From: Planctomycetota bacterium
GTDB taxonomy: Bacteria > Planctomycetota > Planctomycetia > Gemmatales > Gemmataceae
DNA length: 57,104 bases
Reading direction: 5' to 3'
Assembly: GCA_016191165.1 (NCBI GenBank)
Contig: JACPPF010000135.1
Coordinates: 1 to 57,104 of the forward strand
The notes beneath the pieces are model-generated. The model saw nothing but the letters and a program-made list of their open reading frames with translations. It was not told where the DNA came from and did no database searches. The translations under genes and the position numbers were made by a program. Positions within the stretch are counted from its first letter, which is position 1. Each line of letters starts with the position of its first letter. Positions 1 through 15,946 of this stretch are shown here, in pieces.

Positions 1-125
1 CGCTCCGCTCGCCTACGCTGCGCTCCGGCTCGCTGCGCTCCGCCAGGCCACCGCCCCGGCAAAGTCCGCCTCGGCAGCATGGGGAATTATAATTGTCGCT
101 AATGGGGAAGGGTATTTGTCGCCGA
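1..125. other. left edge, no gene seen
   Basis: This GC-rich stretch is made of short reiterated words such as GCTCCG and GCTGCGCTCC, followed by an AT-richer patch near 85-110. I see no convincing reading frame with a ribosome binding site. It lies just downstream of the RHS fragment that ends at 126. Confidence 0.4.
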
Positions 126-899
126 TCAGACCTGAATTCCAACTGCTTGCGCCTTGTTTCCACTTGGGTCCTTCAGAATCTGCGCTTTGTTTTTGACATA
201 TCGATACAGATTGCTATCCCCAGCATCAAATCCCAATGGGTCTTGGCTGATCCATCGCGCGGTCGGCGGGTCATAGTAGCGGGCGCGGTTGTTTTGTAGC
301 TGCGATTCGACGTCGAACTCGCGCCCAGTCCACGCATAGAGGCCGCGGAAGCTTGAATCGGTTTCGCTCGTGATGTTGCCGAACGCGTCATACACCAGCG
401 CGTCTTTGACCGTTGCCGCGTTGTCGAGAACTTTGCGCGTGGAACCCAGATGATCCGTCAGGTACCAGTACGCATTGCCGCCGGTGATGTAGCCGAGGTG
501 TTGATCGACGTTGTCGCCGTCGAGGTTTCGCGATGTCAAAGAACTGCTGCCGTCGAGGACGGCCCAAATGTCGAAATTCTCTGTGCCGATGGGATTGGCT
601 TTCGCGGGGTTCCAGCCCTCAAGCGCGAAACGTGTCACAACGGCTGAGCCGCCGCCTGAGCCATCCGCGTCTACCGTCTTTTGGTTGCGATTTCCTAGAG
701 CATCATACTGATAGTCCGCTGACGACTGTAAGACCGCGGTACCTTCCGTGTCTGGGTCTTCGCTCCACTTGTCCACCGAGGTCAGCTGGTTCTTGTTACT
801 ATAACCATATTTCCAGGTCACACCAGACGAATTCACGATTTTCTTCGTCATGTTCCCTTCGGCGTTGTAGGTTTTATTTCGTTGCGAGGACAATCTCAT
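126..899 (-). pseudogene. RHS core fragment (displaced 3' end of an rhs gene)
   Basis: The 257 codons hold the last YD-type repeats and the RHS-associated core: AYWYLTDHLGSTRKVLDNA, then YDAFGNI, RARYYDPPTARW and DPLGFDAGDSNLYRYV, ending in a very short tail after DPSG. Full RHS proteins carry hundreds to thousands of residues upstream. Here the frame is closed by a stop about ten codons before the first ATG, and no ribosome binding site is visible, so this is a fragment. The short tail after DPSG lacks room for a toxin domain. The core differs from that of the giant RHS gene upstream (which has a DPLLGTFSEP variant), so it came from another rhs lineage. It is either a dead relic or a silent donor of core sequence. 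Confidence 0.75.
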
Positions 900-979: not shown

Positions 980-1480
980 TTAATCTGTCAACCAGTTCAC
1001 CAATGGATCAGACCAATCGCCATCAGCTCCATGCGTAGGGAACGACAGAATAATGTCTGCGTTCTCACCCGCTCCACCCGGCAGTCCATCCTGTCCTAAA
1101 CTCTTGAGCGTAATCGTCTTGTTTTCGTTGATTTGATATTGTAGCGACCTTCCCCAAGCGTCTTTGATCGAGTTGTCAAACCTCGGCAAGGTCGGAATGT
1201 TCGCAAGGCTTTTGGGAAGTTGATTGTTTTGATGTGCATAAACTAAAATCCGACGTTTCACGACCCACATCGTTGTCCTCGTCACTGTTTGATCGGAAAC
1301 CCTATCGGAAAGAAAATAACTAAAAATGCCCGTTGCTACAAGCATCAGCAGCGCAATGAACATTATGAATATCAGCAGCACCAGAAAACCCCAAATAAAG
1401 TTCCTGTAGACCATAGAGCGAGGGACACCTAAATCGGGAAGACAACGTGTACCGGATCGACTGAAATCATTACTTCGCAT
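980..1480 (-). CDS. small membrane-anchored GspG-like protein, candidate immunity gene
   Basis: The protein has one strong hydrophobic helix (about residues 26-57, rich in L, I, F and V) near the N-terminus and a roughly 100-residue exported or cytosolic C-terminal part. The C-terminal part resembles the end of type II secretion pseudopilin GspG: DAWGRSLQYQ followed by SLGQDGLPGG and a run of acidic residues. It lacks the usual prepilin FTLIE motif. A start at the internal Met of MVYRNF (about residue 24) is possible. The 5' end overlaps the end of the upstream RHS tip by 11 bases, which suggests coupled translation. By position it could encode the immunity protein for that tip, but this is inference; a stray pseudopilin-like protein is the alternative. 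Confidence 0.6.
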   Translation of the reverse strand: MRSNDFSRSGTRCLPDLGVPRSMVYRNFIWGFLVLLIFIMFIALLMLVATGIFSYFLSDRVSDQTVTRTTMWVVKRRILVYAHQNNQLPKSLANIPTLPRFDNSIKDAWGRSLQYQINENKTITLKSLGQDGLPGGAGENADIILSFPTHGADGDWSDPLVNWLTD

Positions 1481-2036
1481 TAATCACATCTCGATTGGGG
1501 AACTTCGCCTGAGCTTTCTGAAACATCCATTGCGAGAACATTCTGCAATTGTGCCTTGCAAGAGAATAGCCGTCTTCTTTTCCCACAAATGTATCGAGGT
1601 AAGCCTTGAACTCGTTGTCTTCCTCTGGAGTCGTCTGAAGAATACTTGCTACGGTGCCATTCCCAACTTTACGATTTGTCGTTTCGTCGAACACTCGACC
1701 AGTAGCCCAAGTAGCTGTCCAACTTGTGCCAATTCCAAGCCAGTTTGGTCCAACCCACCAATCGACACCACCGGTTGCCGCGAAAGTGTAGTATGAACGT
1801 CCTGTTTTCACCCATCTGTCGCCTTTCTTTTTCCAGGTATCCACAGCAATATCTTGATGGACTGCCTTGTTAACGGGATTAGGGACAAGACCGGATGAAG
1901 AGGTTGGAGCGTTTGCACCGGTAATCACATAAATGGAATTACCGCTTGGATCTATTACAACCATCGGTCGATTGTTCACGTATCGATAAAGATTGCTATC
2001 GCCCGCATCAAACCCGAGTGGGTCAACGAATAACAC
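1470..2036 (-). pseudogene. orphan RHS C-terminal tip with putative cysteine-peptidase-like toxin domain
   Basis: RHS homology begins abruptly at DPLGFDAGDSNLYRYV and runs through VVIDPSG, the conserved end of the RHS core, and is followed by about 150 residues of unrelated C-terminal domain. That domain has a HQDIAVDTW stretch and, near its end, YSLARHNCRMFSQWMF. A His early and an Asn-Cys pair late are reminiscent of permuted papain-like folds (LRAT/PPPDE type); this fold call is tentative. No in-frame RHS sequence lies upstream and no good start signal is seen, so it is an orphan tip rather than a full gene. A small membrane-protein gene overlaps its 3' end. The DPLGF stretch closely matches that of the RHS fragment at 126-899. 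Confidence 0.65.
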
Positions 2037-2425
2037 CGACGGTGTTTCGCGGCAGCGGCGACGTAACCGCGGTGTTTTACACGGGTTAGCGTCGGTTCAT
2101 CCCGGCGGAATCCGCGTCCACCAGATTTTGCGCCCGACGCGAGTTTGGCGCCGAAAAGCCGCTTTTCCCCGACGGAGGTTGTCCCGCCGTCGCTCAACTT
2201 GCCAAAGACCTCGCCACTATTCTAACCGATCCGGGCCAGCAGAGCGAGAGGGTTCTGCCGATTTTTCCGGGCGTTTCAGGCTGGCGGATGGATGGCACGC
2301 GGCATGGATCGCCTTCAATTGCCGAATGCTGACTTGCGTGTAAATCTCCGTCGTTTGCAATCGAGCGTGGCCCAGGAACGCCTGGATGAAGCGAATGTCG
2401 GCGGACCAAAGGGCGACGGTGAAGC
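2037..2425. other. gap between giant RHS gene and orphan tip
   Basis: Apart from the recombinase remnant (2217-2411) I recognise nothing in these 389 bases. A GC-rich palindromic patch, GGTGTTTCGCGG and a near inverse around 2040-2075, lies directly upstream of the orphan RHS tip. Confidence 0.4.
2217..2411 (-). pseudogene. C-terminal remnant of a tyrosine recombinase
   Basis: The minus-strand frame carries ADIRFIQAFLGHARLQTTEI and then YTQVS, the hallmark C-terminus of XerD/phage-type integrases: the LGH histidine and the catalytic Tyr of IYTQ. The upstream catalytic Arg boxes and the whole N-terminal domain are missing, and homology starts right where the giant RHS gene ends (2426). It is therefore a truncated relic. 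Its place between the main rhs gene and the orphan tips hints that recombinase-mediated or illegitimate exchange shaped this locus. Confidence 0.75.
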
Positions 2426-5400
2426 TCAGACCCGGATGGGTGCGCTCAAGATAAGCTCCTGAATCTCCTGCCACACAATTCGCGCGCCCTGGCCGGTCTT
2501 GGGGTCAACGATGCGTTTGGTCACGAACTGCAAAAGGCCCTTCATTTCGGCCAAGGCGGTTACGCTCTGGGGACGACTCACCGCCTCCCGAACGACACTT
2601 TTCGCGTACAAGAGGGCCTGCGCCTTGAATGCTCTCGAAGCCCCGAACTCCGTAAAGTACCCGAAAAGCGTGCGGGCAGCGCGTTTTTCCGCGGTATATG
2701 CGGCGGCTTCGAGGGCGTCGACAAAAACGGTTCCCGCAGCCTTCCTGGCGGCGGCCTTGCCGACCTCCTTGCCTCCCTTGCTGATCAGGGATTTGACCAC
2801 GCCGCCTGCGGAAAAGACCGTCGGCAGGAACGACGCGACATAGAAGACGACCGACAGCTTGTTGTAGCCCTTCTCCTTCGCTTTCACGGCCGCGTAGTCG
2901 AAGGCGGCGCTGACGATGAAGCTGATCGACGTATAGACGACGAATTCCATCAGGGAAACCGACGCCTGGCCGGTCGGGTCGATCCGGTTCACCGGGTTGG
3001 ACGCCGCATAGACGTAGCGATTCATCGAGAGCGGTTCGGAGAAGGTCCCAAGCAGCGGATCCATCGTCAGGAAGCGGCCTGTCGACACACTCAGGTAGCG
3101 TTCGCGCAGGTAATACTGTTCGCTGATCGAATCGCGCGGCTCCGCGGCAAACAGGTAGGCGTTGGGCGTGAGTCCGGTCTGGTGCAGCATTCGTCCGAAT
3201 GCGTCGTAAACATAGGTATCCGAGACGGCGCCCGCGATGGTGAGCAGGCGCGTACTACCCAGGTGATCGGTGTGGTAGTATGCGGTCGCGCCGATGCGTT
3301 CGGAAATCAGGCCCAGGCCCACGACGTAGGAGGTTGTGATCGTGCGCGCCGGCGAGGTTGTATATTCTTCAACGACGTGAGGCAGAGCGCGATTGGTGTC
3401 GACGAGGAGGCGCGTTTCCTGGGCGCCTTGCTTCTGCGAGACGCGATTCCCGTCCACGTCGTAGCGGTAGTCGATCCGCGTCGCGCCGGCCCCGGTGACG
3501 ATGACGGTCCGCAGGCGATTCTCGAAATCCCAGAAGTAGGTCGTCTGGCTTGTGGTCGACTGCGCGGTCAGCGTGTTGCCGTTGGCGTCGAAGGTGTAAA
3601 CCGTCGCGTTGCCCGCGGTGGTCTCGGAGGTCAGGCGATCGTTTGCGTCGAAGACGTAGACCGTCATGGCCCCGGCGTCATCACGGGTAAGGCGGTTGCC
3701 GACGGCGTCATACGTGTAATGGATGGTGCGATTGCCAAGCGTCCCGTCGGTGACGTTCTCGGTGAGCAAGCGGCCCAGGTCGTCGTAAGCATAGCTGACG
3801 ACTCGGCCGGTATTCTCGGTACGGGAGAGGACATTTCCGTTGTCGTCACGCGTGTAACCGAAGCTGGCCAGGAGGGCCGAGGAAGCGGCGACGAGCTGTT
3901 GGGACGTGAGTTGATCGCGCGCGTTGTAGGTTCTGGTCTCGATCGTGCCGTCGGGGAAATCGGTGCGGACGAGGTTGCCGACGGCATCGTAGCCATAGCG
4001 TGTGATGCCGCCGTCTGGCGCGGTGACGGTCTTCATCTGCCCGACGGCATCGTAGGTGTAGACGACGGCGCCGGCGGGCGTGGTGATGCTGACGACGTTC
4101 CCCACCTTGTCGTAGGCGTAGCGGATGAAGCTGCCGTCTGGATCGGTGCGCTGGAGAAGTCGGTCGCGGGCGTCGTAGGTGTAATTCGTCACGCCGCGGC
4201 TATCGGTGACTGACCGTCTCTGCCCGGTCGCGGTATAGGTGATGGCGACCGACGTTCCATCCGGGAATCGCTTGGAAACAAGCCGATCGTTCAGGTCAAA
4301 AGTGTAACGGATCAAGCTGCCATTGGCATCGACGGTCGCCGTCCGATTGCCGACGGCGTCATACGCGTGGGTTGATCGCTGTCCGAGCGGTAGCACGGTC
4401 GCGGTTTTTCGGCCAAGGGCGTCATATTCGTAGCGTGTGGTGCGCCCCAGCGGGTCGGTCTTGGCGACGAGATTGCCGAGCTCATCGTAAGCGAAGGTGG
4501 TGCGGTTGCCGAGGGCATCGACGGTCGCCACGACGCGTCCCTCGGCATCAAACTCCTGACCGGTCTCACTGCCGAGCGCATCGATCGATTCGAGGGTGCG
4601 AGCGGTGTCGTCATAGGCGATGCGCGCGTTGGTGCCGTCGGCATAGAGTGCGGCCAGCAGGCGGCCGGCTTCATCGTAGGTGAAGCGCGTGGTATGGCCA
4701 AGGGCGTCGGTAAGCGACAGGAGGTTGCCGTTGGCATCAAAGGATTGCCGGGTTTCATTCCCAAGGGCATTGCGGATGAGGATCTGGTTGCCGGCCGCGT
4801 CATAGCCGTACTCGGTGCGCTGGCCGAGTTCGTCGATTTCGGCCGTGACGCGGCTGGCGGTGTCGTATTCGACCTGGGTGCGCGGGTTGTCGGCGAGCGT
4901 GGCGGGCGTCGCGTCGGGATAGATTGTGGCAACGCGGCGGTTGAGTGCGTCGTATTGGTACGTGGTAACCCGGCCGGCGCGATCCGCAAACGACGTCTGG
5001 TTGCCCGCGGCGTCGTAGCCCGCCAGCTCGCTCGTGCCGTCCGGATAGACGGTCCGGATAAGGCGATTGTCGGCGTCGTAAGCAAATTGAGTGCGGCGGC
5101 TCAGGGCATCGATGAACAGCGTGCGATTGCCGGCGGTATCATACTGATACTGCGTGACATTTCCGAGCGCATCGACGGAGCGGAGCACGCGTCCCTCGGC
5201 ATCGTAAACGGCTTGATCGACGACGTTCTGAACGCCGGCCGGCGTTGTCTGCGATTGCGTTGAAGTAAGCAAGCGGCCATTGGCATCGCGCGCGAAGGTG
5301 GCGACGGCGCCGAGGCGATCGGTCTCCTGCACCGCTCGGCCGTTGGCGTCGAAGACCTGAGAAAAGACCCCGCCGTCAGCGCCGGCGACGGTAAGCGGAT

Positions 5401-8400
5401 TCCCCTGGCTGTTGTTGACCATGTCCGTGCGCCGGCCGAATGCGTCGATGATGGCAACCAGATTGCCTTGCGCGTCATACTCATATCGACTCGTGGCGCC
5501 GCGCGCGTCGGTGGCGGTGAGGAGTTGGCCGAATGCGTTGTAGGTGTAGTGGTTGGTCTGCCCGAGCGGATCGATGGAGATCAGCACATTGCCGGCGGCG
5601 TCGTAAACGGTGGTTGTCGTCTGGCCGAGCGGATCAACGACGGTGATGGGGTTATTGCCGGCGTCGTAGGTGGAACGCATGACGCCGCCGAGGGCATCGG
5701 TGCGTGCCACGATATTGCCCTGAACGTCGTACTCGTAGGTCGTCGGATTCCCCAGGGGATCGCGAATGGTCTGGAGGGAGTTGTTCGGATCATAGGTGAT
5801 CTGAACGGCGTTGCCGAGGGCGTCGATGGTGCGGTTAAGCCGGCCCTGGGCATCGTAGACGCTGCGCACGCCGGCTCGACCAAGGGGATCAAGGATTCGA
5901 GTGAGAAAATGCGGCAAGGCGGGATCGTACTGAATTTGCGTGACGTTGCCCGTGCGATCGGTGACCGAGATGAGGTCACCGGCCGTGTTGTATGCGTAGG
6001 TGACGCGCTGGCCCGCCGGGTCGGTTACTCCGACAATGCGCCCCTGGGCGTCCCGGTGAAAGGCGACGTTTGCCCCTGAAGAGCTGGCGATGCCGGCGTC
6101 CGAGTAGGTCAGCGTGTTTTGGTTGCGGTCCGTGGCCCTGGTGAGCAATCCCGTTTCGCCGTCGATCCGGTAGGCAATGCCGTCCGGTGAGGTGAGCGTG
6201 TAGCCTCCGCCGAAGTCGGGAGTGGCCGGATTGTAAGGAAGCTGCCCGTTGAGAGTGTAAAAGTTGCCGTCCGCCCCGAGAGTCAGGTAGACGTTTCGCA
6301 CGGAAAGCTGGTGGGTGACGCCGGGATCAGGCGTGAAGTTCGGAGTGAAGTACACCAGGTTGAACAGGCCATGCTGCTGGGGGGTAAACGTAAAGCCTTC
6401 ACGTTGACCGCCCGGCAAGGTGAGGTAGACTTTCGTGCCGAACTGAAACGGGGTGTACAGGCCGACAATCTCGGCTCCGCTTTTGGGCAGGCTGGTACGC
6501 AAGTCGGTGTCGCGGAAATCGAGCCGCCAGCCAAACCCAAAGTCTCCCTTGCGTGAAGCCGCGAGGGAGTCATAGATGCGCGTTACCGTGATCGGGATGC
6601 CGCCGAGCGGAATCGACATGTCGTCAAACGTGAGCTGGAAGTTCCCGAGCTTGAGTTCGCCGGAGATGCTGACGTTCTGGTCGAGGATCGATTGCAATCC
6701 GCCGGCGTTGGTGGCGACGAGTCGGAGTACGTAGGAGTCATTGGAAAGGAGCGTCGGGTCGATGACGCCGAGCGTGCCGTTGATGACATTGGTGGCGCCG
6801 CCGGCAAACTTTTTGAAAGCCGATTCGGGGGCGTCGGCGGGGCGCAGGAAGAGCTCGTAGTCAAGAAGGTTGGGATCCTGGACGGTGCCGACGACGTTGG
6901 TGAAGGTCGTGATGGTGCCGTCGGCGGCCGGGGCGGTGATGGCGATGTTCGGCGCGTTGACGACGTTCGGATCGATGACGCGGAAGGTGGCGTTCGCCGT
7001 ACCGACGTTGCCCGCCACATCGCGGGCGCTGGCCGTTAGGCCGACGATGCCTGCCGCCGTCGTGTCGAGAGCGGCCTGGCCGTTGCCGTCGAGGGCGATC
7101 GGCGTGCCGTTCACGGTCAGGTCGAGGGCAGTAACGCCGACGTTGTCATAGGCGACGACGCGAACGAACGCCGTGCCGCCGATGATGGTCGTGATTGGAT
7201 TCAGCGCGATGCCGATCTGCGGCGCGAGGGTATCCGGCACGACGGTGACATTGAACGATTGCGTGGCGCGGGCGCCGCGCGGGTCGGTGACTTCGAGCGT
7301 GACCGGATACGGCGAGCCGGGGAGCACGGAGGCGTCAGTGGCCCAGCGAATGCGGCCCGCACGATCGACGGTCATGCCGGCCGGGGCGGCGGTCAATGCA
7401 TAGAAAAGCGCGTCGCCGTCGGCGTCGCTGGCGAGGACGTCATACCGATAGGTATTTCCGGCCACGACGCGCGGCGTCGCCGTCGAGGCAATGGCCGGCG
7501 GGTGATTGAGCGCGGTCACTTGCAGGGAGAATGTCTGCAGCCCGGCGGCGCCGGTTCCACCCGGACCGTCGAAGGCTGCCAGCGTGACGTTCGTCGAGCC
7601 GATGTCGGCGGCGAGCGGACTCCACTCAACGAGCCCGGTGTTGGCATCCACGGTCAGGCCGGCGGGGCCGATCAACTTCTTGAAGTTGAGTGGGCTTGGT
7701 CCGTTGTCAGGATCGACGGCCTGGAGGGAATAAGTGAACGGCACGCCGGCGGTCGCCACGAGCGGAGGCATGGAGGTGATTCTCGGCGCTGCGTTCGGCG
7801 CCGCGGCGGCGACCTCGATCACGAACCGCTGCGACGCCTCGCCGCCAGCGCCATCGGAAACCCGCACGGTGACGTCGGCCGATCCGACCTGGCCAGCGGT
7901 CGGCGTCCACGAGATCAGGCCCGTTTGCGCGTCGATCACCATGCCCGCTGGCCGCGCCGGCAGCGAAAACGCCAACGCGACACCCTGCGGCGCGATGACC
8001 TGCATCGGGTAGAGGTACGTCGCGGCAACGCTTCCGGTGGTGGGAGGCGCTGACGAAATGATCGGCGGCACGTGCGCGCCGCGCACCGTAACCGTGAACG
8101 TCTGCGTCGCCGCGGCGCCCTGGGCGTCGATGACGCGGACCGCGACCTCGCGCTGGCCGAGTTGATCCAGGGTCGGGCTCCAGCGAAGCGCGCCCGTGCG
8201 CGCCTGGATCGACATTCCCGCCGGGGCCTGGTCGAGGCTAAACTCGAGCGGATCGCCGTCGGGATCGTTTGCCATCGCATCGTAGGCATAGATTTCACCG
8301 GCGGTCGCTGTCGTCACGGGCAGCGACGTGAACGCCGGTTGCCGATTCGGATTCTGCGAGGCGACCGTCAGCGTAAACGACTGTTCCACCAGGGGGCTGC

Positions 8401-11400
8401 GGCCATCGCTCACGCTCACCGTCACCGCATTCGGGCCGAGTATATTGTGCGGCGTCCAGGTGATGCGGCCCGTGCTGTCGATCGTCATGCCGATCGGATG
8501 CGTCGGTAAGTCGAACAGCAGCGGATCGCCGTCGGGATCCGTGACCTGCACATCGTAGAAATAGGTATTGGCAAGGCCGATGAACGTGCGCGGCGTCGCC
8601 GTGATCACCGGCGCCGTATTGGGGGTACCGGCCACCACCGGCAGATTGAAAGCCTGTGCCGCGGCAGCCCCGTGCGGATCTGCAACCGTGATCACCACGG
8701 GGTGGCTCGACCCGACTTGAGCAGCGCCTGGCGTCCAGCGCAACACGCCGTTCGCATCGATCGTCATGCCCAGCGCGAGCGAGGGCGCGTCCAGTGTGAA
8801 CGTAAGGGCGCCCCCCTCGGCGTCCTGCGCCTGCACGCGATACTCGTACGGCAACTCAGCGATGGCGGGACCCGGCGGCGTGGACGAGATGATCGGCGCC
8901 GTGTTGGCGGGAGTGACGGTGATCGTGAAATCCAGCAAGGCGACGAGGCCACGGTCGTCCATGACGCGAGCGATTCCACGTTGCGGCCCGACCTGAGGAC
9001 CCGACGGCACCCACGCGATAACGCCGGTCCGGGGATCCATCACCATGCCGTCGGGGTGAACGACCAGTTCAAAGGAAAGCGGCCGACCGTCCGGATTCGT
9101 GACGACGCTTTGATAGCGGTAGTGGACTCCGACCTGGGCGCTCGCGGTTGCCGTGCCGACAAACGCCGGCCCGCGCTGCCCGGTTGTGACGGCATGTACG
9201 CCAAAGTTATTTAGCTGCGTCGGGTCCAGTCCGTGCAACGAAATGGCGTCGATTTCCTCGTAACCGCCGTCGAGGTCGGTATTGACGTAGACCTTGACGC
9301 CCTGGACCGGGTAATCCGTGCGTGGGAACGTAACCCGGAAATCCGCGACTGCCCCGGGCACACTGGGATCGACGCCGGTCCAGACCGTGTGCAGCACATC
9401 GTTGACGTCGAGCAAATCGATTTGTGTCACGAAGCCATTGCCGAGGGTCTCACGAACGGTAACACTCTCGGCCAAGACCGGCGTGTCATATCCGACGGTG
9501 AGGAAATGGGTGCCGCTATTCTGCCCGGAGGTCGTCCATGCGTTGGGGCTATCGCCGTAGGTGAAAACGTTGGGGGCGCCCAGCACTTGAATGGCGCCGT
9601 AGCCCGGCGAACTGTATTGGGAGCTAAAGGCGATGACCGAGGAAGCGTACTGATCGATTTGGGCAATGCCCTGGCCAGGGGCGCGGGTGATGTCCACGGC
9701 GCCGGTGGAGGGCGTCGTCGGCGTCCAGCCGGGCTGCCCCTCAAGCGCCGGGCGATACGTGCCGGGTGGGAGACCTGTAAGGTGAAACAACCCCGCAGGG
9801 TCGGTCGTATCCGCTGGCTCACCGAGGTCGCGGATGCCGTTCTGATTCAGATCGATATAGGCGGTCCGGTTGCTCAGGGGCGGCGTGCCGACCACGTCGT
9901 CAAAGACGATGCCGCTGATCCCCGCCGGGGTATCGTTCGTGATGGTGAGCGTAAAGCTCTGCTCGTCGAACCCGCCGCGGCCATCTTCAACGCGAACTGT
10001 GACGTCATTGGGCCCGAGCGGCGAAACCCCTGGAACCCAGGTAGGGACGCGCGTGCCGATGCCGGAGTCGCCGAGGGTTCCGTCGTTGTGGTTGGGGGTG
10101 GCGTCGTGGACCTTCGCGGCCTGCGCCTCATCCATCGGGTAATACGCTGCCAGGCCTGGCTCGTTGCCTGTGAGCCTCCTGCCCATGTCCGCCTGGATTT
10201 GGCTCTGTGAGCGGGCAAAATCCCAGAGGCGGATCTCATCCATCGTGCCGCGAAAAAAGTTGGCGGGGTGGTCCGGCGCTTGCTGTCCCAGCACCAGGGC
10301 GTCAGCCGTGTATTGAATGGAGCGCGTGTTGACGCTCGTCCCAACCTGCGCGCCATCGATGTAGAGAAGTTGGACATTGCCTGGGTCATCGAACGTGAAC
10401 GCGAAATGATACCAGCGTCCAAGCACGGGCGTGAACGCGGCGCTCACGACGCCGAATCCCTCGACGTCGCGGCCGATGCCGGCATTCAACGTTCGCGCGG
10501 CAGCATCGAACCACAATTGATAGGACGCCCGGAAGAAGGCGTTGACGATCGATTTCTGGGCGAGGATCTGGGTCGCCTGATCGGTGTCGAACTTGAACCA
10601 GCCTTCGAGTGTCAGGTTGGTCAGGCGCAGCGTGGGCGAGTCGGGAATGACGACGCGATCGTTGCCGTCAAACGACAATCCGCCGCCGCGCGGGTCCCAG
10701 TTGATCTCACCCGTGACCCCATCGATGGTCATGCCGTCCGGCGCGGTGGTCAAGCTAAACTGTAGTGGATCGCCATCGGCATCGAGGGCGCTGACGGCGT
10801 GGGAGTAAGCCTGATCGGTCAATAGCGCCGTGGTCGGCACGCTGACGATGATCGGCGCCTGGTTCCCGATCGTTTGCCGAACGTTGACGACGAACCCCTG
10901 CGTGCTGACGCCGCCGCGACCATCGTCGGCCTGAATGGTGACGGCATTTGGGCCGATCTGATCGGAGGTCGGGAACCAGGTCACCAGGCCGGTGGCGTTC
11001 ATGGACATGCCGGCCGGGCCGTTCTGCAGGGTGAACGCGACCGGATCGGCGTCTGGATCGCTCGCGGCGGCCTGGTACGTGTACGGAGCGCCGAGGCCGA
11101 AGCGATTGAGGAGAACGGTGGCCGTGTCGCTGGCTTCATTGGCGACGATGATGTCGTCCTTGCCGTCGCCATTCATGTCCTCGACCTGAACCGAAACGGG
11201 CCGATCGCCGGCAGTGCGAATCGGAATTGGCGCGCTGAACTGCAAATTGCTCTGATTCAACAGGATGGCGACCTGATCGTCATCCGTATTGGCGACGACG
11301 AGATCGGGCCGGCCGTCGCCGTTGATATCGCCCGCGGCGAGGCTGCGCGGGGCTTGGCCGACGAAAAACGAGACGCCGGCCGCAAATGTCCCGTCGCCGT

Positions 11401-14400
11401 TGCCGCGGAAGATGGTCGCGGTGTTGTTCCCCTCGTTGGCGACGACGAGGTCCAACTTGCCGTCGCCGTCGAGATCTTCGAGGATCACACTGCTTGGCTG
11501 CGCCCCCGAGGGTAGGATCATCGGCGCCGCGAAGGCGCCGTCGCCGTTGCCCAGATAGACGAACAGCGTATTCTCGCCGCGATTGGCGACAACCAGGTCG
11601 GGGTTGAGATCGCCATTGATGTCACCGAGCGCGACGCTCGATGGCTTGTTGCCGGCGGCAATATCGGCGCGTGCGAACGTGCCGTCATTGCGGCCTAGCA
11701 GTACGGACACGGTGTTGGCGAGCCCGTTGGCGGTCACGGCGTCGAGTTTTTGGTCGCGATTGAGATCGCCCAGCGCCAGCGCGACGGGCCCACGACCGAC
11801 GAGGGTGTCGTGCAACCGGTTGAAGGTATCGTCGCCGTTGCCCGTCAGCACTTTGAGGCGATCGTTGGCTTGATTGACGGCGAGGATGTCCTTCTTGCCG
11901 TCGCCGTTGACATCGCCGGTGGCGATGGCTTGCAGGCCGGGGAGAGGCTGCAACCAAACGGTAAAGCGGTTGTAGGCGCCGGCGCTGTTGCCCGAGTCGC
12001 TTTCGAATAGATCGAGCCGGCCGTCGCCGTTCAGGTCGTGGACGACGATGCTGTCGCCGCGTCCTTGAGGATCGGCGATGAATTCGAGCGGGCCAAAGGT
12101 TCCGTCGCCGCGTCCGCGCCGCACCGCGTTCGGGCCGAAGCCGTCGTGATTGACGACGAGGTCCAGGTCGCCGTCGCGGTCGAGGTCGGCGTTGACGATG
12201 GCCCAGTGGCCGTAGTCGTAGCGCGTGGCGCCGCCGAAGGTGTGGTCGCCATTGCCCAGGAGGACCCAGGTCGCGAAAATGCCGACGCCGGCGAGATCGA
12301 GGTTGCCGTCGTTGTTGAAATCGCCTGCGGTGGTTTCCCAGAAGGACCCGGTGCCGTTGCCGCTGCGGGCCTCGATCGGCGGATCAGGGTTGGCGTTGAC
12401 GGGCGCGTCAAACAGATCGCTTGCATCCGCGGCGCCCGCTTGATGCTTGCCCTTCCACACGAACAACCTTTCCGCCACGAATCCCGGGCTGCCCTGGGCG
12501 CCGACGGGGCCGGCGTGAATGATCAGGTCGAGTTTGTTGTCGTTGTCGAAATCGCCGAGGAGGATGTTGGAGCCGTTCTCGTGCTGGATGGTGTCGTCCG
12601 GAGTTCGGCCCAAGAGCATCTGCGAACCGGCATCGGACAGGTAGGTGAATCCACCGATTCCGCCATTGGCGGTCGTATCGTAGAGCCAGATTTCAACGTT
12701 GCCGCTCAGCGAGTTGTAATTCCAGGTCCGAACGACAACGTCGGGGTGGAGGTCGCCGTTGAGATCGCCGACGGCAAGGTTCTGGCCGCCCGTGGTGCCG
12801 TCATTGGGTCCGCCGGAGAATGGCTGCCACGGGAATACCTGGAGGACGGAAAACCCGCCCGCGCCGTTTCCCAACGCCACGGCCGTGCCATGCGGCGCCA
12901 GCCAGACGACGTCCAGATGGCCGTCGCGGTCGAAGTCGGCGCTGCGGATTTGCGAGTTGAAAACGCCAAAAACGGACGAGGCAACGCGCGGCAGGACGGC
13001 GACCCCGCGGCCAAACGTGCCGTCGCCCAGTCCCGGCGCGAATGATAACGACGAAGTCAAGATCGCCGCGTCGGGAATGCCGTCCTCGTTGAAGTCGCCG
13101 ATTGTGGTCATGCCCTTGAGGCCGAGGAAACCGCTGTCGGTTTCGACATCGCGCGGCATGAAATAATCGCGCGGGGAAGCGAACGCGCCCGGGGTCGTCC
13201 CCAGCAGCAAGGACACGCCGCCCGGGCGCGTCGGGTTGAAATCGTTGATGCCGCCCGCCATGATGTCTTGCACGCCGTCGTTATTGAAGTCCCCAGCGAT
13301 GACCGCGCCGGTATACGTGCCCGCGAGGGTTTTATTCGGCACGCCCGAGCCGGCTGACGCCACATATTGTTTCAGTACGAACGTACCGTCGCCGTTGGAT
13401 TGGCCGATGGTTACGACGTTGGGCGCGCCCCGCCCCCAGGTGCCAAAGAGAAAATCGGGCTGACCGTCGCCGTCGATATCAATCGGCGCCTTGTCGGTGA
13501 ACCAAGCGACGGTCAGATTGGGAGTCTGGTAGCTTGTGTTTCCCTTCCATTCGCCGGCCCAACCCCCGGACAGATCGAGATTCTTGACGCCGAACGTGCC
13601 ATCACCGTTGTTGAGGAACACGGCGATTCGACCGAAATCCATGGTCGCGATAATGTCGGTCTTTCCGTCGCTATTGAAATCGCCAAGCCGGATGCTTTGC
13701 GACGAGCCGGCTATTCGCAAATCGGACACGGCGAAGTGGCCCGTGCCGTCGTTGGTGAAAAAGCGGATCCTGCGTTCGTCGTGGCTGACGGTAACGATGT
13801 CGTTGCCGTTCTGGCCGTCGATGTCGCCGATGGCGAGGTCCCAACCGTTGACGCCGGTGCTGATGGTTTGCAGGTTGCCGAAGCTGCCTTGCCCGTCGCC
13901 GTTCAAGATGGAGACGAAGCCGCTGTCGCCGCTGTAGATGGCGAGATCGAGATGCCCGTCGCCGTCGAGATCGTCGGTTTGCAAGCGCACCGGATGTGTG
14001 GCCGTGGCGGCGGCGACCGGGGCGTCGAACGTGCCGTCGCCGAGACCGTTGAAATACCACACCTCGTTGCGATCATGCATGGCAACGACCAGATCGAGCG
14101 TGCCGTCTTCGTCGAAGTCGCGGGCCAGGACGCCGTAACCCACCGAGGGCAATTGCAAGATGTCAACGGGATCCTGGAACGTGCCGTCGCCGTTGCCGAG
14201 CATCGTGGTAAGCCAATACTGCCGATTGAAGGGCAAGTCTCGGTACACCGTGGTGGCGACGTCCAGGTTCCCGTCCAGGTTGAAATCACCCTTGGCAACA
14301 CCGAAAACGCCCGATGCGTTTGAGTTCGGAGGCGGAAACGTCAGCGGCAACATCTCGGGCATCACGAAGAGCTGGTCCGGGTCGGGCGGCGGTTCGCCGA

Positions 14401-15946
14401 CGCTGAGTGCGCTGAACGGATCGAACGCGCCGGCGCCGACGCCCGCCGCGAAAGAGATATTCTGGTCATTCGTATTGGCGGTAACGACAGACAATACGCC
14501 GTTGTTTTTGAAGTCGCCGACCGCGACGCCCGCCGGGCCATCGCCGACCGGGATGTCGATGCGCTGGAACGCGGCGGCAACGCCGGCATCGACGATCGGC
14601 GTCGACGTGAAGATCGGCGGGCGATTGGGAGGCGGGGCGGCCACCGTGATCGTGAACTCCTGCGTGTCGACTCCGCCCCGGTCGTCGTCCACTCGCAGAA
14701 TCACCGAATGCGTGCCGACTTCTCCGGCCGATGGCGTCCAGGTTGCCGTCCCGGTCGTTGCGTCGATGAGAAGCCCCGTCGGGCCGCCGAGTTTGCTGAA
14801 GCGCAGCGCGTCCCCGCTATCGGCGTCACGGGCCGTCGCATGGTACACGTAGGTCCTGGCAGGCTGTGCGTCTGGCCCTGCCTGCGACGTGAATTCCGGC
14901 GTCTGATTCAATCGGCCCAACACGACCAGCTCATAAGTGAACGGCTTCTTGGTCGGATTCAGAAACGTGATGGCCCGAGACGCTGTCGTCGCCCCCGGCG
15001 CCAGGGTTGGTCCGCCGATCAGGTCGGTGTAGTCGTAGTACGGCGTCCCGTCTGGCAAATCACCATCCGCGCCGGTCATGACGACACCCGGATCACTGAT
15101 ATTGCGAATGCCCACCAGGAGGGGGGCATTGATCAGGTACGTGCCGTCGCCCTTGATGCTCAGGTCGGCGGTCAACACGGTGGCCTGGTCGTTGAATCGC
15201 GTTCGGCCGTAATGCGGGGTGAAACTCCCCGTGACGTCGGAGAGGAGCGCGAAGTCGATGTCGCGTTGCGTGAAGGCCGCCGCCGCCGTTCCGAGTGCGG
15301 ACGGAACCGCGCCGCCGGCCAGGCGCCTCACCTTGCTGATCGTCACCCGGTGATCCGTATCGGCATTGTTGTTGACGAGCCGAAAGATGAGCGTCCCCAC
15401 CCCCGGCGGAATTCCAGCCAGGCTGACGGTGACGGTCTTGCCGGAGCGCAAGACGCCCGGGGCGAGCGTCGGGCCGACACCCCGCGTTTCATTGAAGAAC
15501 GCATCCTGCCCCGGTCCGATCGTCGGCACAAGCGACTCGCCTGCCGCGTTCACAAACGCGACCTCGAAAGCATCGCGCACTCCGGGGGTCGCCGCGGTCT
15601 GCGGCGCACGCACATAGTTGAAGGAGATCCGGGACGAGGCGGGGCCGATAACAAAACTTTTCTTCAAAAAGACTTCAAACGACGTGCCCTCGCGAAGAAT
15701 CGCCGACGTGCCGTTGATGGTCACGGAGCCGCGGCCCGGCTGCTCGCCTCCAATTTGACCGGTGCTCCAGTTGGCAAGGCTCACGGCCGAGGGACCCGCC
15801 GGGATGCCCACACGATTGCCCGGGACCATGACCGCCAGCATGATGCGGTCTTCGAGCGACTCCACGGCCGGCCGGAATTCCTTCCTGGGAATCCTGCGAA
15901 TCGGTTCGTGGTTGCGCTTTCGAAAGAAGGAACGGAACACGCGCAT
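2426..15946 (-). CDS. giant FG-GAP/Ig-like/LamG/RHS-repeat surface protein (4506 aa)
   Basis: A single uninterrupted frame. Approximate domain order: N-terminal export-type segment with LEDRIML (31-37); putative Ig (He_PIG) unit (350-436); long FG-GAP/VCBS array of DxDGDGxxD-type calcium loops forming beta-propellers (455-1610); two He_PIG units; LamG/concanavalin domain starting at GLSFDGNDRVVIPDS (1757-1960); SdrD B-like repeat with DLNQNGIRDLGEP (2006-2076); beta-sandwich (2086-2245); seven or eight He_PIG units (2250-2900); Ig-like domains (2910-3100); RHS entry region and YD repeats such as YDAAGNQTSF (3260-4215); RHS core (HTDHLGSTRLL near 4223, RYVYAASNPVNRIDPTG near 4310-4326); variable C-terminal domain of 180 residues with two hydrophobic stretches. 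Likely an exported, contact-dependent adhesin/toxin shell. No clear immunity gene follows. Start ATG has a GAG at suitable spacing (GAGTTTGCCATG). Confidence 0.93.
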   Translation of the reverse strand: MRVFRSFFRKRNHEPIRRIPRKEFRPAVESLEDRIMLAVMVPGNRVGIPAGPSAVSLANWSTGQIGGEQPGRGSVTINGTSAILREGTSFEVFLKKSFVIGPASSRISFNYVRAPQTAATPGVRDAFEVAFVNAAGESLVPTIGPGQDAFFNETRGVGPTLAPGVLRSGKTVTVSLAGIPPGVGTLIFRLVNNNADTDHRVTISKVRRLAGGAVPSALGTAAAAFTQRDIDFALLSDVTGSFTPHYGRTRFNDQATVLTADLSIKGDGTYLINAPLLVGIRNISDPGVVMTGADGDLPDGTPYYDYTDLIGGPTLAPGATTASRAITFLNPTKKPFTYELVVLGRLNQTPEFTSQAGPDAQPARTYVYHATARDADSGDALRFSKLGGPTGLLIDATTGTATWTPSAGEVGTHSVILRVDDDRGGVDTQEFTITVAAPPPNRPPIFTSTPIVDAGVAAAFQRIDIPVGDGPAGVAVGDFKNNGVLSVVTANTNDQNISFAAGVGAGAFDPFSALSVGEPPPDPDQLFVMPEMLPLTFPPPNSNASGVFGVAKGDFNLDGNLDVATTVYRDLPFNRQYWLTTMLGNGDGTFQDPVDILQLPSVGYGVLARDFDEDGTLDLVVAMHDRNEVWYFNGLGDGTFDAPVAAATATHPVRLQTDDLDGDGHLDLAIYSGDSGFVSILNGDGQGSFGNLQTISTGVNGWDLAIGDIDGQNGNDIVTVSHDERRIRFFTNDGTGHFAVSDLRIAGSSQSIRLGDFNSDGKTDIIATMDFGRIAVFLNNGDGTFGVKNLDLSGGWAGEWKGNTSYQTPNLTVAWFTDKAPIDIDGDGQPDFLFGTWGRGAPNVVTIGQSNGDGTFVLKQYVASAGSGVPNKTLAGTYTGAVIAGDFNNDGVQDIMAGGINDFNPTRPGGVSLLLGTTPGAFASPRDYFMPRDVETDSGFLGLKGMTTIGDFNEDGIPDAAILTSSLSFAPGLGDGTFGRGVAVLPRVASSVFGVFNSQIRSADFDRDGHLDVVWLAPHGTAVALGNGAGGFSVLQVFPWQPFSGGPNDGTTGGQNLAVGDLNGDLHPDVVVRTWNYNSLSGNVEIWLYDTTANGGIGGFTYLSDAGSQMLLGRTPDDTIQHENGSNILLGDFDNDNKLDLIIHAGPVGAQGSPGFVAERLFVWKGKHQAGAADASDLFDAPVNANPDPPIEARSGNGTGSFWETTAGDFNNDGNLDLAGVGIFATWVLLGNGDHTFGGATRYDYGHWAIVNADLDRDGDLDLVVNHDGFGPNAVRRGRGDGTFGPLEFIADPQGRGDSIVVHDLNGDGRLDLFESDSGNSAGAYNRFTVWLQPLPGLQAIATGDVNGDGKKDILAVNQANDRLKVLTGNGDDTFNRLHDTLVGRGPVALALGDLNRDQKLDAVTANGLANTVSVLLGRNDGTFARADIAAGNKPSSVALGDINGDLNPDLVVANRGENTLFVYLGNGDGAFAAPMILPSGAQPSSVILEDLDGDGKLDLVVANEGNNTATIFRGNGDGTFAAGVSFFVGQAPRSLAAGDINGDGRPDLVVANTDDDQVAILLNQSNLQFSAPIPIRTAGDRPVSVQVEDMNGDGKDDIIVANEASDTATVLLNRFGLGAPYTYQAAASDPDADPVAFTLQNGPAGMSMNATGLVTWFPTSDQIGPNAVTIQADDGRGGVSTQGFVVNVRQTIGNQAPIIVSVPTTALLTDQAYSHAVSALDADGDPLQFSLTTAPDGMTIDGVTGEINWDPRGGGLSFDGNDRVVIPDSPTLRLTNLTLEGWFKFDTDQATQILAQKSIVNAFFRASYQLWFDAAARTLNAGIGRDVEGFGVVSAAFTPVLGRWYHFAFTFDDPGNVQLLYIDGAQVGTSVNTRSIQYTADALVLGQQAPDHPANFFRGTMDEIRLWDFARSQSQIQADMGRRLTGNEPGLAAYYPMDEAQAAKVHDATPNHNDGTLGDSGIGTRVPTWVPGVSPLGPNDVTVRVEDGRGGFDEQSFTLTITNDTPAGISGIVFDDVVGTPPLSNRTAYIDLNQNGIRDLGEPADTTDPAGLFHLTGLPPGTYRPALEGQPGWTPTTPSTGAVDITRAPGQGIAQIDQYASSVIAFSSQYSSPGYGAIQVLGAPNVFTYGDSPNAWTTSGQNSGTHFLTVGYDTPVLAESVTVRETLGNGFVTQIDLLDVNDVLHTVWTGVDPSVPGAVADFRVTFPRTDYPVQGVKVYVNTDLDGGYEEIDAISLHGLDPTQLNNFGVHAVTTGQRGPAFVGTATASAQVGVHYRYQSVVTNPDGRPLSFELVVHPDGMVMDPRTGVIAWVPSGPQVGPQRGIARVMDDRGLVALLDFTITVTPANTAPIISSTPPGPAIAELPYEYRVQAQDAEGGALTFTLDAPSLALGMTIDANGVLRWTPGAAQVGSSHPVVITVADPHGAAAAQAFNLPVVAGTPNTAPVITATPRTFIGLANTYFYDVQVTDPDGDPLLFDLPTHPIGMTIDSTGRITWTPHNILGPNAVTVSVSDGRSPLVEQSFTLTVASQNPNRQPAFTSLPVTTATAGEIYAYDAMANDPDGDPLEFSLDQAPAGMSIQARTGALRWSPTLDQLGQREVAVRVIDAQGAAATQTFTVTVRGAHVPPIISSAPPTTGSVAATYLYPMQVIAPQGVALAFSLPARPAGMVIDAQTGLISWTPTAGQVGSADVTVRVSDGAGGEASQRFVIEVAAAAPNAAPRITSMPPLVATAGVPFTYSLQAVDPDNGPSPLNFKKLIGPAGLTVDANTGLVEWSPLAADIGSTNVTLAAFDGPGGTGAAGLQTFSLQVTALNHPPAIASTATPRVVAGNTYRYDVLASDADGDALFYALTAAPAGMTVDRAGRIRWATDASVLPGSPYPVTLEVTDPRGARATQSFNVTVVPDTLAPQIGIALNPITTIIGGTAFVRVVAYDNVGVTALDLTVNGTPIALDGNGQAALDTTAAGIVGLTASARDVAGNVGTANATFRVIDPNVVNAPNIAITAPAADGTITTFTNVVGTVQDPNLLDYELFLRPADAPESAFKKFAGGATNVINGTLGVIDPTLLSNDSYVLRLVATNAGGLQSILDQNVSISGELKLGNFQLTFDDMSIPLGGIPITVTRIYDSLAASRKGDFGFGWRLDFRDTDLRTSLPKSGAEIVGLYTPFQFGTKVYLTLPGGQREGFTFTPQQHGLFNLVYFTPNFTPDPGVTHQLSVRNVYLTLGADGNFYTLNGQLPYNPATPDFGGGYTLTSPDGIAYRIDGETGLLTRATDRNQNTLTYSDAGIASSSGANVAFHRDAQGRIVGVTDPAGQRVTYAYNTAGDLISVTDRTGNVTQIQYDPALPHFLTRILDPLGRAGVRSVYDAQGRLNRTIDALGNAVQITYDPNNSLQTIRDPLGNPTTYEYDVQGNIVARTDALGGVMRSTYDAGNNPITVVDPLGQTTTTVYDAAGNVLISIDPLGQTNHYTYNAFGQLLTATDARGATSRYEYDAQGNLVAIIDAFGRRTDMVNNSQGNPLTVAGADGGVFSQVFDANGRAVQETDRLGAVATFARDANGRLLTSTQSQTTPAGVQNVVDQAVYDAEGRVLRSVDALGNVTQYQYDTAGNRTLFIDALSRRTQFAYDADNRLIRTVYPDGTSELAGYDAAGNQTSFADRAGRVTTYQYDALNRRVATIYPDATPATLADNPRTQVEYDTASRVTAEIDELGQRTEYGYDAAGNQILIRNALGNETRQSFDANGNLLSLTDALGHTTRFTYDEAGRLLAALYADGTNARIAYDDTARTLESIDALGSETGQEFDAEGRVVATVDALGNRTTFAYDELGNLVAKTDPLGRTTRYEYDALGRKTATVLPLGQRSTHAYDAVGNRTATVDANGSLIRYTFDLNDRLVSKRFPDGTSVAITYTATGQRRSVTDSRGVTNYTYDARDRLLQRTDPDGSFIRYAYDKVGNVVSITTPAGAVVYTYDAVGQMKTVTAPDGGITRYGYDAVGNLVRTDFPDGTIETRTYNARDQLTSQQLVAASSALLASFGYTRDDNGNVLSRTENTGRVVSYAYDDLGRLLTENVTDGTLGNRTIHYTYDAVGNRLTRDDAGAMTVYVFDANDRLTSETTAGNATVYTFDANGNTLTAQSTTSQTTYFWDFENRLRTVIVTGAGATRIDYRYDVDGNRVSQKQGAQETRLLVDTNRALPHVVEEYTTSPARTITTSYVVGLGLISERIGATAYYHTDHLGSTRLLTIAGAVSDTYVYDAFGRMLHQTGLTPNAYLFAAEPRDSISEQYYLRERYLSVSTGRFLTMDPLLGTFSEPLSMNRYVYAASNPVNRIDPTGQASVSLMEFVVYTSISFIVSAAFDYAAVKAKEKGYNKLSVVFYVASFLPTVFSAGGVVKSLISKGGKEVGKAAARKAAGTVFVDALEAAAYTAEKRAARTLFGYFTEFGASRAFKAQALLYAKSVVREAVSRPQSVTALAEMKGLLQFVTKRIVDPKTGQGARIVWQEIQELILSAPIRV

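Follow-up and report, generated by a model that had tools for sequence, protein, structure and literature searches.

A short minus-strand region near the start of contig C174 of a Planctomycetota genome (G000) probably represents an orphan RHS toxin-tip/immunity module, in which a predicted envelope hydrolase of the permuted NlpC/P60 type is paired with a T2SSG-like immunity protein and is found without an RHS carrier. The window, that is, the whole stretch of DNA analyzed, corresponded to the entire contig (57,104 bases) in a 7.2-Mb, 183-contig genome that was 95% complete. According to the proposed mechanism, the tip would be a cysteine hydrolase of the circularly permuted NlpC/P60 type with an early histidine (H60) and a late cysteine (C164), which, when joined to a complete RHS carrier, would be delivered into the periplasm of a neighboring cell. 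The target of the tip there would be the envelope, in which it would most likely cleave acyl bonds of membrane lipids, while the small protein encoded next to it would hold its T2SSG-like domain outside the inner membrane by means of a single-helix anchor and block the toxin. Since it has neither a carrier nor a clear start, the present tip is probably a silent or reserve cassette.

The orphan RHS fragment and its genomic setting

On the minus strand, on which all features of the window described here are located, the genes were arranged in the order of a full-length RHS/YD-repeat gene of 4506 aa that differs from the orphan in core and tip (2426..15946), the 3' end of an Xer recombinase gene, the orphan RHS fragment, a small gene and a second RHS fragment (126..899). 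The latter, which is of the same core type as the orphan, ended approximately 10 residues past a DPSG motif and had no tip. The orphan fragment itself (1470..2036), identified by its ORF and an RHS model match, was predicted to encode a short core header and a toxin tip (188 aa in total, GTG start); it began at DPLGFDAGDSNLYRYV, followed by a tip of 155 residues, and its reading frame stayed open to position 2096. The abrupt start of RHS similarity noted in a preliminary description of this DNA was borne out by two models, as the similarity started at the DPLGFDAGD motif and covered positions 49-75 of TIGR03696 (E 8e-5), and a local RHS-core profile matched the fragment from profile position 54 of 81, so that the similarity was confined to the final portion of the core. 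At the DNA level, the core header (DPLGFDAGDSNLYRYVNNRPMVVIDPSGN, 1938..2027) was 83-90% identical to window positions 190-242 and to places on contigs C17, C42, C178 and C177, all belonging to other RHS fragments of the same genome, a similarity beyond chance. No evident ribosome site preceded the GTG start and no promoter-like site above chance was found at the header, start signals being poorly known in this phylum. The G+C content of the tip and the small gene taken together was 46.5%, compared to 61.1 +/- 2.7% (lowest value 53.5%) for 537 equally sized windows from the remainder of contig C174, which points to a foreign origin of the pair.

In Salmonella, experiments have established the existence of orphan RHS tips linked to an immunity gene (PMC3967940). 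Like the orphan rhs-CT/rhsI module STM0292 of Salmonella LT2 (PMC3967940), the fragment is a displaced 3' RHS piece, far below the length of a full rhs gene, in which part of the core leads into a new C-terminal tip with a small gene directly downstream. Like the orphan rhs-CT/rhsI modules of the Enterobacteriaceae (PMC3967940), it is located behind a full-length rhs gene and has a tip that occurs on long RHS proteins elsewhere, and it may also share their lack of obvious start signals. It differs from the Salmonella orphan, for which 522 bp of core at 95% has been described (PMC3967940), in having no core in common with the neighboring full-length gene, and from the enterobacterial modules in its header of only about 90 bp and in the Xer recombinase remnant in front of it. 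The earlier likening of the unit to enterobacterial orphan rhs-CT/immunity cassettes held for the core piece, the tip and the linked gene, but not for the relationship to the 4506-aa rhs gene.

A search of the genome with the RHS core profile gave 11 core matches at E<=1e-5. Long RHS frames were limited to the 4506-aa gene of the window and one gene on C178, neither of which was matched by the orphan header or tip. The 4506-aa gene showed no DNA match to the header, which matched short RHS fragments only, and the idea of the orphan as a donor cassette for this neighboring gene was rejected because the core differs. No long RHS gene bearing the orphan header was found in the assembly by either the header search or the core-profile search. 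The orphan is thus one among numerous RHS fragments of the genome, and since the long RHS genes were not matched by its header, a recombination partner, if any, is absent from the assembly.

The tip family and its predicted fold

The tip domain (1473..1937) is a candidate member of the permuted NlpC/P60 (LRAT/PPPDE-like) group. When the window tip alone was used to scan genome and viral collections for nearest relatives, none was obtained. A profile built from the window tip and a distant relative in G311 drew members from G503, G591, G467 and G460, and later members were added from G781, G121, G843 and G963, giving a family of 10 tips, that is, the window tip and nine more in other Planctomycetota genomes. 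Within the Planctomycetia the family was found in 5 of 337 genomes; plasmid and phage searches for the tip gave nothing, and neither did PADLOC for the tips. An RHS header was present on all ten tips except a cut remnant in G121, and in G591 and G843 the tip was carried by long RHS frames of 2657 and 1705 aa, respectively, corresponding to full-length-type RHS proteins. The occurrence of the same tip on full RHS genes, proposed as a check in the preliminary description, supports the assignment of the fragment as an RHS tip. In six genomes (G311, G591, G460, G467, G781 and G963), tandem RHS fragments continued after the tip. The G311 locus (L030, 4456-18943) was a long tandem array made up alternately of RHS tips and small genes for membrane or exported proteins. 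The G503 protein (L109, 394-1101, plus strand) carried a signal peptide directly ahead of the family tip with its minimal RHS header, resembling a stand-alone secreted effector.

Alignment of nine members revealed invariant His, Val, Gly, Tyr and Cys columns within a pattern of H-x-x-(I/V/L)-x-V early and Y-x5-(N/T)C late in the tip. All intact members retained the early His and the late Cys, which are H27 and C131 of the tip and correspond to H60 (codon 1857..1859) and C164 (codon 1545..1547) of the ORF; these are predicted to be a catalytic residue and the nucleophile, respectively. The cysteine is part of the late HNC motif that had been noted in the new C-terminal domain, and this motif was recovered in the present analysis.

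The five best matches in a profile search of the tip family against PDB were HRASLS2, RARRES3, PLAAT4 and PPPDE1/2, all of which are permuted papain-like enzymes. Each match was weak (E 0.05-0.19 in one search, 0.014-0.26 in another), and in a further PDB profile search 11 of the 12 matches listed belonged to permuted papain-like enzymes. The similarity was centered around the Y-x5-NC motif, and a control profile of reversed sequences gave no PDB match at E<=10. Curated family models (Pfam, TIGR) did not reach cut-off for the tip; several members gave weak Pfam matches to Peptidase_C97 or LRAT, the former being the commonest (E 0.015-0.05, below cut-off). Matches of a single tip to troponin and antibody structures in PDB were dropped as chance matches. 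The structure prediction suggested in the preliminary description was of little use, as the AlphaFold models (pLDDT 38 for the window tip from a single sequence, 47 for a relative from two sequences) were too poor for fold comparison and were left out of the fold searches. Membership in the permuted fold also implies a histidine that precedes the cysteine, and this order was found with both residues conserved. Taken together, the PDB profile matches, the clean reversed control and the His-before-Cys order make a permuted NlpC/P60 (LRAT/PPPDE-like) fold likely, in line with the LRAT/PPPDE resemblance considered at the outset. In its best profile matches the tip resembles the HRASLS/PLAAT and LRAT lipid enzymes and the PPPDE (C97) peptidases, but it differs from these groups in scoring below significance, in its bacterial toxin context and in having no match to a curated family. 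An RHS tip with HTGIAV ... YSVFADDTCHSFTW on contig C17 of the same genome (L025, 618-1829, minus strand) may also be related to the permuted papain-like tip.

With regard to substrate, two permuted NlpC/P60 toxins are informative. Tox-Act1, a type VI secretion system (T6SS) effector with phospholipase activity, shows toxicity when located in the periplasm but none in the cytoplasm, and is paired with an immunity protein of two membrane helices (PMC12994826); TseH also has phospholipase activity and acts on phospholipids (PMC12994826). By analogy with the activity of these two toxins, an envelope-lipid hydrolase is favored for the tip, with a PPPDE-like peptidase activity also possible. Under the latter reading, to which we assign a clearly lower probability, the tip would target peptidoglycan peptides or proteins rather than lipids, as do PPPDE and canonical NlpC/P60 peptidases. 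PPPDE peptidases were among its best profile matches, Peptidase_C97 was the most frequent weak Pfam match, and for polymorphic toxins, tips of the NlpC/P60 and papain-like types have been predicted to be cell-wall or protein peptidases (PMC3482391). Against this, the best profile matches came from the HRASLS/PLAAT phospholipase/acyltransferase group, and the permuted members that have been assayed as toxins, Tox-Act1 and TseH, act on phospholipids (PMC12994826). The favored lipid hydrolase resembles the Tox-Act1/Imm-Act1 pair of Salmonella (PMC12994826) in its predicted permuted papain-like core with His before Cys and in the exported or membrane immunity gene directly downstream; it differs in being an RHS tip and in an immunity candidate with one helix and a T2SSG-like domain in place of two helices, the two systems having been likened by description. 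The tip would add a likely permuted NlpC/P60 toxin family to those carried by RHS proteins, in a class of toxins whose action on lipids has only lately been demonstrated, for a T6SS effector.

The T2SSG-like gene downstream of the tip

The candidate immunity gene (980..1480) encodes a protein of 166 aa composed of a single-helix anchor and a T2SSG-like domain. It starts within the last codons of the tip, so that the stop of the one and the start of the other overlap by the 11 bases initially reported (1470..1480, ATGCGAAGTAA). One strongly hydrophobic stretch was seen by hydropathy (residues 31-49, 1334..1390; Kyte-Doolittle 3.16), and residues 102-144 (1049..1177) matched Pfam T2SSG with 33.2 bits (gathering score 21, E 5.8e-8). 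The earlier assignment as a small, one-helix, GspG-like protein was therefore upheld. The similarity to the GspG major pseudopilins (T2SSG, PF08334; TIGR01710) lies in the C-terminal D-x-W-G ... G-x-D-G-x-x-G-G pattern. In contrast to these, the translation contained no prepilin peptidase motif (G, then F/M at +1 and E at +5) before the helix, the score against the TIGR gspG model (38.3 bits) fell far under the cut-off of 88.85, and the relatives in G781 and G121 were lipoprotein-like. For these reasons a role of the small gene as a pseudopilin was rejected, and the pseudopilin-like nature attributed to the protein earlier was at most partly sustained.

The same gene order recurred at two further loci. 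In G781, a lipoprotein-like T2SSG gene (23.1 bits, cut-off 21) followed an RHS protein with the same tip, the two overlapping or being at most 6 bases apart, and the next RHS module came thereafter. In G121, a lipoprotein-like T2SSG gene was overlapped by a truncated tip that retained the Cys motif, the place of the front half of the tip being occupied by a transposase-type gene. The tip and a T2SSG-type gene were thus adjacent at three loci (the window, G781 and, with half a tip, G121). T2SSG relatives of the small gene were detected in about 24 of 347 Planctomycetia genomes. As this family and the tip family are both rare, the three direct adjacencies are judged not to be due to chance. In a tree of 18 T2SSG relatives, the window gene was placed apart from those of G781 and G121, so that the three paired genes did not form one clade (weak support); with the same weak support, this would mean that the pairing arose twice or was lost elsewhere.

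From the position of a T2SSG-type gene directly behind the tip in G781 and behind the truncated tip in G121, the small gene is likely to be the cognate immunity gene of the tip. It could instead be a bystander, that is, a member of a widespread family of exported T2SSG-domain proteins lying next to a genuine toxin. In about 21 of the 24 carrier genomes (those other than G000, G781 and G121), no RHS gene or tip was detected within approximately +-1.5 kb of the T2SSG relative (+-6 kb for eight of them), the RHS protein near the G781 gene being one that was detected by profile and missed by a regular-expression scan. These unpaired relatives may be solitary immunity genes or have another role. 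The position directly 3' of the tip, with stop/start overlap in the window and G121 and a distance of at most 6 bases in G781, the rarity of the partner tip family (5 of 337 Planctomycetia genomes) and the occurrence of exported genes in the same place behind all ten tips argue against a bystander, which is considered improbable. The immunity role proposed in the preliminary description was in this way supported by the recurrent pairing, while the family turned out not to be dedicated to RHS toxins.

By inspection and hydropathy, the gene behind the tip was predicted to be exported or membrane-bound in 10 of 10 cases, as judged by a signal peptide, lipobox or membrane helix. Besides the three T2SSG cases, single-helix proteins were encoded behind the tip in G591 and G843 (in G843 by a gene beginning some 500 bases downstream of it), multi-helix proteins in G311 and G963, proteins with a signal peptide in G460 and G467, and a lipoprotein-like one in G503. 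The genes following five other RHS tips of G000, used as a small control, were less hydrophobic overall (maximum 0.8-1.8 versus 1.7-3.2). The exported site of the partner genes fits a toxin working outside the cytoplasm, and the recurring tip/T2SSG order together with the exported genes behind ten tips supports a toxin-immunity pair that would act at the envelope. In G503, the lipoprotein-like gene was followed by a gspG-like gene with a prepilin motif (L109, 1132-2165, plus strand). A T6SS sheath gene was present in 8 of the 10 tip-bearing genomes, including G000.

GspG and pseudopilins are not mentioned in the text consulted of the main polymorphic-toxin survey, and a search of a limited literature collection gave no paper linking pseudopilins to immunity in such systems, with one incidental match. 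The exported GspG-like (T2SSG) domain is proposed as a probable new kind of immunity protein, and the pair is small and directly testable.

Xer recombinase genes beside RHS cassettes

Window positions 1978-2403 matched positions 1013-1438 of contig C144 at 89% and contained the 3' end of an Xer tyrosine recombinase gene. This remnant (2217..2403, 62 codons) was 92% identical to the intact gene on C144, and the non-coding stretch between its stop and the RHS header (2037..2216) was also homologous to C144, where an RHS header leading into a Tle3-like lipase tip is found behind an intact Xer gene (411 aa) and a primase-like gene (898 aa). By hand count from the alignment, 4 of 187 bases differed in the Xer remnant, compared to roughly 1 base in 4 in the stretch from the stop to the header, which suggests that the Xer part was moved or converted later than the adjoining stretch and that a recent recombination boundary lies near the Xer stop.

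The fragment could alternatively be decaying debris, left as a functionless, cut 3' half after a mobile primase-Xer element had entered an RHS gene. Its header adjoins the Xer remnant with no promoter-like site above chance, the next RHS fragment is devoid of a tip, and on C144 the Tle3-like tip that follows the same header and Xer gene (L024, 184-1101, minus strand) contains one in-frame stop. Such decay is nevertheless rather unlikely, given that all 188 codons of the tip frame are uninterrupted and include the two residues predicted to be catalytic, that the overlapping downstream gene is intact as well, and that similar short-header modules with immunity-type genes occur in tandem on C177 and C42 of the same genome (two headers on each) and in G311, G591 and G963. 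A further short-header module followed by an immunity-type gene was located on C122. The reading as an orphan toxin-tip/immunity module is accordingly preferred.

All three places of this Xer family in G000 (C144, C27 and the remnant on C174) directly preceded RHS tips or fragments. A primase-like gene with one or two Xer genes was found beside RHS tips on C144 (L024, 1013-5009) and C27 (L063, 4068-6491) and, in other classes, in G071 (L093, L094 and L095; three copies that are not independent), in G210 (L092; on both sides), in G131 (L096) and, weakly, in G161 (L098). Every RHS core in G071, G210 and G131 (four, two and one, respectively) was located no farther than about 7 kb from a primase-Xer element, with no other RHS core found in these genomes by the core-profile search. 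G414, G171, G056 and further genomes, in several cases on short contigs, did not show such an association. Seen in at least four genomes, the link is more than chance, the element either moving the cassettes or being merely tolerated there. Among the cassettes of G000, neither a common recombination site nor a conserved intergenic motif was found, and none of the terminal or att-like repeats around the cassettes was convincing.

Only tentatively, primase-Xer might be a mobile Planctomycetota element serving to carry, spread or shuffle cassettes of RHS tips and immunity genes, as a toxin-bearing counterpart of the Bacteroidales rAID, in which a tyrosine recombinase is associated with arrays of orphan immunity genes (PMC12247911). 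The rAID (PMC12247911) was the nearest known analogue found, since in both cases a tyrosine recombinase lies beside arrays of immunity-type genes. The arrays described here differ in also carrying RHS toxin tips, in the pairing of the recombinase with a primase and in having no conserved intergenic motif. The link between RHS arrays and primase-Xer genes represents a testable route for cassette spread. At the contig break near the module lies a GC-rich repeat (window positions 1-128; 127 bp in the match) whose sequence agrees to 99% with the beginning of contig C137.
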